A stretch of DNA of 64,000 nt from Algimonas porphyrae (GTDB taxonomy: Bacteria > Pseudomonadota > Alphaproteobacteria > Caulobacterales > Maricaulaceae): positions 682,001 through 746,000 of the forward strand of contig NZ_CP163424.1 of the NCBI RefSeq assembly GCF_041429795.1. The letters are read 5' to 3'. Both the position numbers and the translations under genes were made by a program. The notes under the pieces were generated by a model, which worked only from the letters and a program-made list of their open reading frames with translations, was not told the DNA's origin and searched no databases. Below, piece after piece: positions 41,807-45,170 of the stretch. How positions within the stretch are numbered: position 1 is the stretch's first letter; each line of letters starts with the position of its first letter.

Positions 41807-42373
41807 ATGGCAGGTAGAAACGACAATCGCCGTCGCGACCAGGACGAAGACAACGAGTTCATCGATCGTCTGGTGCACATCAACCGCGTTGCGAAAACCG
41901 TCAAAGGCGGCCGCAATATGAGCTTCGCCGCCCTCGTGATCGTGGGCGACGAAAAGGGCCGTGTCGGCTTCGGCAAGGGCAAGGCCCGCGAAGTGCCCGA
42001 AGCCATTCGTAAGGCGACGGAAGAAGCCAAGAAGACGATGATCCGCGTGCCGCTGCGTGAAGGCCGGACCTTGCATCACGACGTCAAGGGCCGTCACGGC
42101 GCTGGCAAAATCATGATGCGTGCCGCCCCTCCCGGGACCGGCGTCATCGCCGGTGGTCCGATGCGCGCCGTTCTGGAATGCCTCGGCGTTCAGGATGTGG
42201 TCGCCAAGTCGAACGGTACATCCAACCCCTACAACATGGTTCGCGCCACGTTTGATGGGCTGAAGCGTATGGAAAGCCCGCGTACCGTGGCTGCCAAACG
42301 CGGCAAGAAAGTCGCCGACATTGTCGAGCGGCGTGTCGATGGTGCCTCCGCACCAGAAGCTCTCGAAGCATAA
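41807..42373 (+). CDS. rpsE: 30S ribosomal protein S5
   Basis: 188 residues. [40 protein letters not shown] and [20 protein letters not shown]. mRNA-entry and decoding-fidelity protein. Confidence 0.98.
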
Positions 42374-42385
42374 TTGGAGGCTGAC

Positions 42386-42574
42386 ATGGCTGCCAAGAAA
42401 ACATTGAAGGTCCGCCAGACGGGCTCGCCGATCCGCCGCAAGCCGGATCAGCGCGCGACCCTGATCGGTCTCGGCCTGAACAAGATGGGCCGCGTTCGCG
42501 AGCTCGAAGATACGCCGTCCGTGCGCGGCATGATCAACAAGGTCTCCCACATGGTGGAGATCGTCGAAGAGTAG
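42386..42574 (+). CDS. rpmD: 50S ribosomal protein L30
   Basis: 62 residues from the ATG at 42386, 12 bases after rpsE and preceded by [25 protein letters not shown] and [15 protein letters not shown] fit. Confidence 0.95.
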
Positions 42575-42584
42575 ATTTCAAGAC

Positions 42585-42610
42585 GCGGCAGGCCTCCTGC
42601 CGCTCTTTTT
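42585..42610 (+). terminator. Terminator-like hairpin between rpmD and rplO
   Basis: GCGGCAGG (42585-42592), CCT, CCTGCCGC (42596-42603), then TCTTTTT. It lies 11 bases after the rpmD stop and 90 bases before rplO. It would reduce or stop transcription inside the spc operon. Confidence 0.65.
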
Positions 42611-42699
42611 CACTCATCATCTCCAAGCCGGCTGGATTTTGCCGGTGACGCCGAAGCGCCATACGGGATCGTGGGCGTAGGCGGAGAAAGGTAAGAACA

Positions 42700-43665
42700 A
42701 TGCGTTTGAACGAACTCTCAGATAATCCGGGCGCAACCAAGGCCCGCAAGCGGGTCGGTCGTGGTATCGGTTCCGGCAAAGGCAAGACAGGCGGCCGTGG
42801 TGTCAAAGGTCAGAAATCCCGTAGCGGTGTTTCGATCAATGGCTTCGAAGGCGGCCAGATGCCTATTCACATGCGTCTGCCCAAGCGTGGCTTCAACAAG
42901 CCCAATCGCAAGCGCATGGCCGAACTGTCCATTGCCACGCTCGAGCGTGCAGTCCAGGCCGGAAAGATCAAGACCGGCGACAAGCTCGACGCTGAAGCGC
43001 TCGTCCGCGCCGGTGTTATTCGCCGCGCCCATGACGGTGTCCGCGTGATCGGCAATGGCGATCTGTCTGCGGCCCTCGACCTGCATGTCGCGTCTGCGAC
43101 CAAAGGCGCGCAAGCCATTATCGAAGGTGCCAAGGGCTCCATCACCATCGTCGAAGGCACGCCCGAACGGGTGACCCGCGACAAGGATGCTGTCGCAGCC
43201 AAGCCGAAAGCGAAAAAGGCGGCTCCGAAAAAGGACGCGGCTCCAAAAGCGGACGCGGCTGAAAAGAAGACGTCTGAAAAGAAAGCGCCTGCGAAGAAAG
43301 CTGCACCGAAGAAAGCTGCACCGAAGAAAGCTGCTGACAAGGCCGAAGCGGCTGAATCGGCTTATCTCGCCAAGACGCAGGACTTCGATGCCGACGCCGA
43401 CAACGCCGCGCTTCTCGCGATCGAGAAATATCTCGGCGCGTCGCTGAAGAATAAAGACGCAAAATATGTGTCTTGTTCGGATGAGAGCGAACTGGACACG
43501 ATCGTCAAAGGTTTCATGAAGAAGAAACTGGGCGTCGATGACAAGGACGCGGCGATGGAAAAGGTCAAAGCCGTCTGCGCCACGATGAAGCCACACCGGA
43601 TGAAAAACCGGGTGACCTTCTACTATCTGCTTGCCAAGAACGAAGGCAAACTGGGCGAATTCTAG
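42700..43665 (+). CDS. rplO: 50S ribosomal protein L15 fused to a DUF2853-like domain
   Basis: 321 residues, about twice the normal L15. Residues 1-160 are ordinary L15: [57 protein letters not shown]. Residues 165-215 are a low-complexity Ala/Lys/Pro linker made of KKAAPKK-like repeats. Residues about 225-321 form a separate globular domain: [39 protein letters not shown] and [18 protein letters not shown]. That pattern matches the roughly 100-residue DUF2853 family, normally a stand-alone protein of unknown function. The frame is open and ends in a single stop. The hairpins on both sides suggest separate expression control. Confidence 0.93.
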
Positions 43666-43681
43666 TCACAATCACTTCAAT

Positions 43682-43726
43682 GACCCTGGCGCAACTGCGG
43701 CAGGGTCTTTCGCTTCAGGGGAAGCG
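43682..43726 (+). terminator. Terminator-like hairpins between rplO and secY
   Basis: GACCCTG (43682-43688) pairs with CAGGGTC (43701-43707), followed by TTT. A second small hairpin CGCTTC-AGGG-GAAGCG occupies 43711-43726. The short T run makes this a weak terminator or an attenuator. Confidence 0.5.
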
Positions 43727-43796
43727 TCCCTAACTCGGGAAGATAGGCGGACGGGCCCATTACGGCATTCACGTCCGCGGCAAGGGACCTTTAATC

Positions 43797-45170
43797 ATGG
43801 TATCAGCCGCCGAACAGCTCGCGCAGAATTTCCGTCCCGGAACCTTCCTGAAGGCGAAGGAGCTGCAGCAGCGCCTTCTCTTCACCCTCGGCATTCTGAT
43901 CATCTACCGCCTCGGGACCTATATTCCGGTTCCGGGTGTCGATCTGGCGGCATTCTCGACATTTCTCGAGGGCGGAACCGCGGGTGGGTTCGGTGACCGG
44001 CTGAACATGTTTGCGGGTGGTGCGGTGGAACGCATGGCCGTTTTCGCGCTCAATGTGATGCCCTATATTTCGGCCTCGATCATCATGACGTTGATGAAAG
44101 GCTCCGTCCCGAGCCTCAAGGAGCTCGATAAGGAAGGCCAGCAGGGCCGCCAGCAGATCAACCAGTATACGCGCTACCTCACGCTTGTGCTCGCCGCCTT
44201 CCAGGCGTTCGGCGTGGCGAAGCTGATCGAAAATAGCGGCGCAGCGATCAATCCCGGCCTGTTCTTCCAGACATCGACCGTGATCACGCTGGTCGGGGGC
44301 ACCATGTTCCTGATGTGGCTCGGCGAACAGGTGACGGCGCGCGGGGTCGGTAACGGCGTCTCGCTGATCATTTTCGCGGGTATCGTGGCTGAATTGCCGC
44401 GGGCCATCTTCCAGGTCTTCTCGCTCAACAGCAGCTCTTCGGTCGTTTCGACTCAGCTTCTGATCTTCCTGATCGTGATGTTCATCACCCTCTCCATGCT
44501 GATCGTCTTCGTCGAACGGGCGCAGCGACGATTGCTGGTCCAGTATCCGAAGCGACAAATGGCCCGCGGACGCCAGTTCGGTGGCGAGAGTTCCTTCATG
44601 CCGCTTAAGCTCAACACGGCGGGCGTGATCCCGCCCATCTTCGCCAGTTCGCTGCTGATCCTGCCGACGACGCTAGCGCCGCTGATGCTGGGATCGGACG
44701 GTTCCGGTGCATCCGGCTTCGCGACGACCTTGCTCGCGCTGTTGGGTTATGGCCAGCCCGTCTATCTGGCGCTTTATGGCCTGCTGATCATCTTCTTCTG
44801 TTATTTCTACGTACCTTACGTCTTCAAACCCGATGATGTGGCCGACAATCTGCGCAAGAATGGCGGCTTCCTGCCCGGTATCCGTCCGGGGGCCCGGACG
44901 GCGGATTATCTGACCTATGTCCTGTCCCGCCTGACTTTCATCGGTGCGTTCTACGTCGCCTTCGTCTGCGTCGTGCCTGAAATCGTGATTGCGCAGAATG
45001 ACGGGATCCCCGTGTCTGTCGCCATGCTGATCGGCGGGATGAGCCTGCTGATTATCGTGTCCGTCACACTCGACACGGTCTCGCAGATTCAGTCGCATCT
45101 GATCGCGCACCAGTATGAAGGGCTGATCAAGAAGTCCCGCATGCGCCGCCGGTCTAAAGGCAAGACCTGA
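43797..45170 (+). CDS. secY: Protein translocase subunit SecY
   Basis: Channel of the Sec translocon, 457 residues and ten membrane helices. LIIYRLGTYIPVPGVDL (about 34-50), MPYISASIIMTLM, ERAQRRLLVQYPKRQ and AFYVAFVCVVPEI are family landmarks. 41 bases before adk, the usual pairing. Confidence 0.98.
   Translation: MVSAAEQLAQNFRPGTFLKAKELQQRLLFTLGILIIYRLGTYIPVPGVDLAAFSTFLEGGTAGGFGDRLNMFAGGAVERMAVFALNVMPYISASIIMTLMKGSVPSLKELDKEGQQGRQQINQYTRYLTLVLAAFQAFGVAKLIENSGAAINPGLFFQTSTVITLVGGTMFLMWLGEQVTARGVGNGVSLIIFAGIVAELPRAIFQVFSLNSSSSVVSTQLLIFLIVMFITLSMLIVFVERAQRRLLVQYPKRQMARGRQFGGESSFMPLKLNTAGVIPPIFASSLLILPTTLAPLMLGSDGSGASGFATTLLALLGYGQPVYLALYGLLIIFFCYFYVPYVFKPDDVADNLRKNGGFLPGIRPGARTADYLTYVLSRLTFIGAFYVAFVCVVPEIVIAQNDGIPVSVAMLIGGMSLLIIVSVTLDTVSQIQSHLIAHQYEGLIKKSRMRRRSKGKT

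Follow-up and report, generated by a model that had tools for sequence, protein, structure and literature searches.

What is a second folded domain doing at the end of ribosomal protein L15, and is it genuinely part of that protein? The question is raised by rplO in the window, that is, the whole stretch of 64,000 nucleotides from Algimonas porphyrae that was analyzed here. The fusion is conserved and, to judge from sequence comparisons, belongs to a wider pattern in which ribosomal, membrane, and granule-type proteins exchange C-terminal modules. With a probability of roughly 40%, we propose that the tail of L15 serves as an exchangeable tethering arm whose target is probably nucleic acid.

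Architecture of the L15 protein

The rplO open reading frame spans exactly 42700..43665 (+) and encodes 321 residues followed by a stop, yielding a protein of 34.1 kDa and pI 10.0 composed of a uL15 core, a linker, and DUF2853. The core (residues 1-152; 42700..43155, +) matched the NCBIfam model rplO_bact TIGR01071 over residues 2-148 (143.3 bits, cut-off 77.95) and the Pfam Ribosomal_L27A/L15 model PF00828 over residues 76-149 (50.1 bits, cut-off 21.5), while the tail (residues 218-321; 43351..43662, +) matched DUF2853 (Pfam PF11015) over residues 222-318 with 94.9 bits (E 5e-27, cut-off 25), covering model positions 2-100 of 101. Both the fusion to a second domain and its identity as DUF2853, as put forward in the initial annotation, were thus borne out within one reading frame. 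The linker proved Ala/Lys-rich, as also described there, but at 65 residues (153-217; 43156..43350, +; 21 Ala, 19 Lys, and 7 Pro) it is somewhat longer than the 50 proposed. No HhH (helix-hairpin-helix) match was obtained for this protein with Pfam or NCBIfam models.

Structure prediction agreed with this division. Residues 154-220 were predicted to be disordered (pLDDT < 50), and the isolated DUF2853 part was modeled by AlphaFold with a mean pLDDT of 96; within the full-length model, built from 17 sequences, the same part scored lower, with block means mostly of 56-84. By Foldseek, the predicted fold matched 2pyq (E 5.2e-5, TM-score 0.80 by query), a crystallized DUF2853 protein from Jannaschia; this was the sole significant match of the fold search, and 2pyq was also matched by sequence (E 3e-12).

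The open reading frame list places an ORF at 42374..42574 (+) upstream of rplO, which we take to be rpmD (L30), and a gene at 43797..45170 (+) downstream, presumably secY, an order that we take to be that of the spc operon. Reading the C-termini of 13 further ribosomal ORFs in this operon, with gene names of our own assignment, revealed no comparable tail, and no Rfam RNA was found in 42300-43900. A single L15 match was obtained in the window genome, and the sequence makes it likely that its DUF2853 is located on the 50S subunit.

Distribution of the fusion

The same L15-DUF2853 fusion was present in 18 genomes of our family genome set and at no fewer than 17 loci in 17 different named assemblies, two overlapping sets whose counts are not additive. 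Carriers included Hellea, Algimonas, Litorimonas, Robiginitomaculum, and further relatives, and among the matches listed, the named assemblies closest to the window tail were Algimonas arctica, Litorimonas cladophorae, Hellea, and uncultured Caulobacterales; in the NCBI taxonomy, Algimonas belongs to Robiginitomaculaceae. The frame was open in MAGs as well as in the assemblies of cultured A. arctica and L. cladophorae, so that a join of two genes by misassembly or frameshift, for which we found no support and of which the initial annotation had seen no sign, has a negligible chance of explaining it. The titles and abstract openings that we searched, with subscription papers mostly outside the search, contained no description of L15 or S2 with DUF2853, and DUF2853 itself is mentioned in one of the papers searched, PMC3595295. 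L15-DUF2853 is a real, conserved domain fusion, undescribed in the literature searched.

Within the family, DUF2853 was detected in 44 of 99 genomes and 8 of 19 genera; we refer to these eight genera, which comprise 48 genomes, as DUF2853 genera, although the domain is present in 44. A pattern scan of the genome collection, restricted to the best 80 of 103 confirmed relatives and therefore giving lower bounds and no census, recovered DUF2853 on at least 17 L15 proteins (one also with HhH), at least 10 S2 proteins, at least 30 copies of a membrane-anchored protein, at least 14 copies of a phasin-like protein, and at least one smaller membrane protein that also had HhH, besides at least nine DUF2853-only frames, one of them cut by a contig end. 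In a Robiginitomaculum MAG (L434), two DUF2853 frames lie in tandem, the first of which is cut by the contig end and has an acidic A/E/P linker resembling that of S2.

Beyond the family, the idea that the fusion is common across Alphaproteobacteria was rejected: DUF2853 occurred in 7 of 240 genomes of a class sample that included the window's own, and the other six genomes contributed seven domains, all as stand-alone, single-domain frames of 106-157 aa. Among the matches listed for 299 genomes of the order, at least seven DUF2853 frames outside the family exceeded 200 aa. Six of these were fetched (two of G154 and one each of G183, G235, G314, and G331; that of G194, a congener of G154 and G235, was left out) and none was ribosomal; each was either a membrane protein combining HhH with DUF2853, an OmpA-like protein, or DUF2853 after a short leader or frame noise. 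The 385-aa ORF of G314 (L342), from another family of the order, has DUF2853 near its N-terminus, a transmembrane stretch, and a C-terminus that we assume to be OmpA-like.

Two modules on several carrier proteins

Four DUF2853 domains are encoded in the window genome (3.17 Mb): a stand-alone protein, the L15 tail, the end of a membrane-anchored coiled-coil protein, and part of a phasin-like helical protein. S2 is also tailed by DUF2853 within the family. A second C-terminal module, HhH, was found on L15, S2, the membrane protein, and NuoE, and it tails bL21 in genera without DUF2853; on the membrane-anchored protein, HhH is often followed by DUF2853. The window genome (G000) has DUF2853 on L15 and HhH on S2, whereas L15 of G071 bears both. 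To judge from these architectures, DUF2853 and HhH are interchangeable, in that either can sit on L15, S2, or the membrane-anchored protein. Given that the domain also occurs on membrane-anchored and phasin-like proteins, the suggestion in the initial annotation that DUF2853 proteins act in translation generally found no support.

The arrangement resembles that of HhH-tailed bL21 (NF008915/NF008916), S2 (NF008966), and NuoE (NF009040), in which a linker likewise precedes a small folded C-terminal module, and it is with their C-terminal parts that these models match L15-HhH from a relative. For L15-HhH of G012, the NCBIfam matches were to L21 (1.3e-21), NuoE (1e-16), PhaH (2.3e-16), and S2 (7e-13), all below the whole-protein cut-offs of the models and partly via the linker. 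The window protein differs from these systems in that the carrier is L15, bL21 is bare, and the module is DUF2853, which showed no relationship to HhH in our searches. As to the phasin-like protein, PF05597 matched 5 of 13 members at E ≤ 0.01 (best E 1.5e-4), with the member shown below the cut-off, and the PhaH model scored above its cut-off in 0 of 99 family genomes and in 1 of 60 genomes of the order.

Several further proteins touch on this repertoire. A 520-aa DUF2853 ORF in G042 (L122), whose N-terminal part gave only Pfam matches with E above 0.04, presumably resembles another phasin type, and a 651-aa ORF in G083 (L352), which we take to be acyltransferase-like of the WS/DGAT type, ends in an A/K linker and HhH. 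Next to the gene for the phasin-like DUF2853 protein in the window genome, the ORF L004:1875-2900(-) combines a hydrophobic stretch at the N-terminus with several copies of GRPKGSKNK, a motif that we regard as AT-hook-like. In a near relative, G025 (L035), the L15 tail of ~130 residues is rich in A/K and includes a helix-like stretch, but no module was detected in it.

Module exchange on L15

On a 40-row tree of the L15 core (17 rows with DUF2853, 14 with HhH, one with both, and eight with neither, these eight including an outgroup and one row cut by a contig end), module type required 15 changes, against a mean of 18.5 for shuffled labels. The DUF2853 label alone required 14 changes (shuffled mean 13.1) and was no more clustered than chance, which fits swapping and, equally, a weakly resolved tree (15 of 37 inner branches strongly supported). 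The strongly supported branches force six changes for the DUF2853 label and four for HhH, and one fork with support 98/93 separates sister species that differ, G037 having DUF2853 and G091 HhH on L15. L15 modules were mostly nearest to the L15 modules of other genomes, across genera too, a closeness that exchange between species would explain, as would loss from an ancestor with both modules such as that now seen in G071. To our knowledge, it is unusual for entire folded domains to be exchanged on a core ribosomal protein among closely related species.

In a tree of 133 DUF2853 domains, 36 of 38 stand-alone rows formed a clade apart from the fused copies (100/100); the stand-alone proteins share the domain of the L15 tail by sequence and fold (PF11015; 2pyq), but a role in translation, which the initial annotation had extended to them, is unsupported. 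The copies on L15 (18) and S2 (10) grouped together (98/83) beside the phasin-like copies, with S2 within L15, so that the DUF2853 of S2 appears to have been copied from that of L15, and DUF2853 looks like a docking module that moved onto the ribosome, once by this tree, which is built on few columns and has rough support. The shorter and rougher tree of 106 HhH domains contained a ribosomal clade of 29 L21, 16 S2, 7 L15, and 2 other domains, and another clade of 32 membrane-protein, 6 small membrane-protein, 4 NuoE, and 7 L15 domains, with two L21 at its base. By these single-gene trees, L15 would have gained modules at least three times.

An arm at the uL15/bL21 corner

L15 and bL21 tails were distributed in a complementary manner. 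In the eight DUF2853 genera, all 37 genomes read have a bare bL21, with 2-6 residues past the core. In the other genera of the family, bL21 was tailed in 50 of 51 genomes: 31 had an A/K tail and HhH, as did G041, 18 had an A/K tail alone, and one had nothing (no L21 was found in 10 of the 99 genomes, and that of G057 was a fragment). In G041 (L332), bL21 and HhH lie in different frames, with an apparent frameshift in the linker. Conversely, a survey of L15 open frames, as proposed in the initial annotation, gave 245-426 residues in the DUF2853 genera, except in G028 (204, at a contig end), G043 (193), and G070 (a fragment), vs. 163-198 in the remaining genera, except in G021 (264, of which the real tail is 27 residues) and G054 (223); these lengths are upper bounds on the tail and, outside the DUF2853 genera, mostly the only data. 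L15 was not found in eight genomes of the DUF2853 genera.

An interface between uL15 and bL21 is listed for the 50S in a table of PMC4881015, and by the tail surveys and trees the arm seems to have moved between these touching neighbors, from bL21 to uL15. Since the two groups of genera are related, the split of 37/37 vs. 50/51 may reflect one event. The same 50S corner keeps an arm although both the bearer protein and the tip module change. That close relatives have different domains at the same spot of the ribosome suggests an arm by which ribosomes are tied to some other part of the cell.

A proposed tethering arm and its possible target

In the reading that we favor, the disordered, basic linker would hold a small folded module off the uL15/bL21 corner of the 50S; this module is DUF2853 here and, in close relatives, HhH, both, or none. 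Many of the species concerned would also have an arm of this kind on the 30S, borne by S2. The module would keep ribosomes loosely attached to another cell structure, most likely through nonspecific binding of nucleic acid, either nucleoid DNA or RNA. We infer the tether role, the equivalence of DUF2853 to HhH in this job, and the nucleic-acid target. The last is proposed because the HhH of the Caulobacter phasin PhaH (NF045508), homologous to those of L21, L15, S2, NuoE, and the membrane protein, is reported to bind DNA: according to the review PMC13052382, the PhaH N-terminus binds PHB granules and its HhH binds DNA nonspecifically, holding the granules on the nucleoid. In PhaH, an anchor protein, the C-terminal HhH tethers granules to DNA, and it matches the HhH with which DUF2853 alternates on L15; the window L15 itself has no HhH.

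Charges and motifs point in both directions. The L15 linkers are basic (mean +11.7), which we count in favor of nucleic acid, while the S2 linkers are acidic (mean −6.9), which we count against it. Mean net charges of DUF2853 were +0.9 on L15 (n = 18), −0.2 on S2 (n = 10), +0.5 on the phasin-like protein, and +9.7 on the membrane protein (n = 38); those of HhH were −3.2 on L21 (n = 31), −1.2 on L15 (n = 14), −6.4 on S2 (n = 16), +3.6 on the membrane protein (n = 32), and +3.8 on NuoE (n = 5). The near-neutral or acidic ribosomal modules look like poor candidates for DNA binding, yet in the one PhaH homologue that was read, HhH likewise has a charge of just −1. KPGPK or GRP[RK] motifs, which we take to be AT-hook-like, were present on the membrane protein in 15 of 40 genomes (GRP[RK] in 2 of 40), and no such motifs were found on the tails of L15 (0/32), S2 (0/21), or the phasin-like protein (0/22). 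We also count against nucleic acid that the fold search with DUF2853 gave nothing significant beyond 2pyq.

More speculatively, the two unrelated modules might constitute a general anchoring code spanning the ribosome (bL21, uL15, and S2), the inner membrane, complex I, and storage-granule proteins, in which modules would hop between neighboring ribosomal proteins and arms on both subunits would tie ribosomes to the nucleoid, membrane, or granules. Extensions of ribosomal proteins also occur elsewhere: according to PMC9534751, 11 of 52 ribosomal proteins of Mycoplasma pneumoniae have terminal extensions, mostly predicted to be disordered and three with secondary structure. The L15 arm, in contrast, is predicted to end in a folded domain, one that is exchanged for another and that seemingly moves between neighbors. 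It makes the function of such an extension directly testable and gives a lead on the role of DUF2853, and the natural module swaps would allow a genetic test of ribosome tethering in bacteria.

Alternative explanations

One alternative, which we consider less likely than the reading above but to be taken seriously, is that the modules dock on each other. Those on the ribosome would bind those of the membrane-anchored or phasin-like protein and would thereby attach ribosomes to the inner membrane or to granules. The same two modules are indeed present on the ribosomal and membrane sides, and their mean charges are opposite on ribosomal carriers vs. the membrane protein and NuoE; the phasin-like DUF2853, however, is near neutral like the ribosomal copies. 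In a tally made by hand over the 48 genomes, 36 had a module both on the membrane protein and on L15 or S2, four had it on neither side (G040, G043, G048, and G086), and eight were unscored with a gene missing or cut (G016, G028, G042, G050, G070, G078, G087, and G095). The four double absences, which would fit docking, nevertheless amount to at most two independent losses, given that G040, G048, and G086 form one clade. These three small genomes gave no HhH match at all, and because they and G043 have no module on L15 or S2, the arm is evidently dispensable, which we count against the tethering reading. Docking also sits poorly with G050 and G070 (67% complete), which have a ribosomal module without the membrane protein, and with G016 and G028, in which the membrane protein has a module while S2 is plain and L15 is missing or cut. 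Module types, moreover, are unmatched between the sides, L15-HhH occurring with DUF2853 on the membrane protein in G018 and G077.

Improbable in our view is a purely local role, in which the module aids assembly, stability, or hibernation of the 50S at the uL15/bL21 site and reaches nothing else. Such a role would agree with an arm that keeps to one 50S corner while its carrier changes, and with purifying selection on the module, but the same module sits on S2, in the other subunit, and on non-ribosomal proteins, and a long disordered linker suits reaching out over packing on.

We are equally doubtful of functionless shuffling, in which low-complexity A/K repeats would recombine and swap tails and L15 would tolerate any C-terminal addition. 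The fast turnover of tails (15 changes in 40 rows), the unclustered DUF2853 label, and the bare or plain A/K tails of some species would follow from it. The L15 proteins read, however, show only two kinds of recognized folded module, and a module, once present, is kept. In eight pairs of L15 genes, dN/dS was 0-0.054 for DUF2853 (computable in seven), 0.013-0.108 for the core (all eight), and 0.057-0.165 for the linker (four), values that are rough with dS mostly near saturation, and by which the L15 core and its attached DUF2853 are under about the same constraint. Amino-acid identity followed the same order, at 0.58-0.85 for the linker vs. 0.87-1.00 for DUF2853, and the linker was the less alike in eight of eight pairs.
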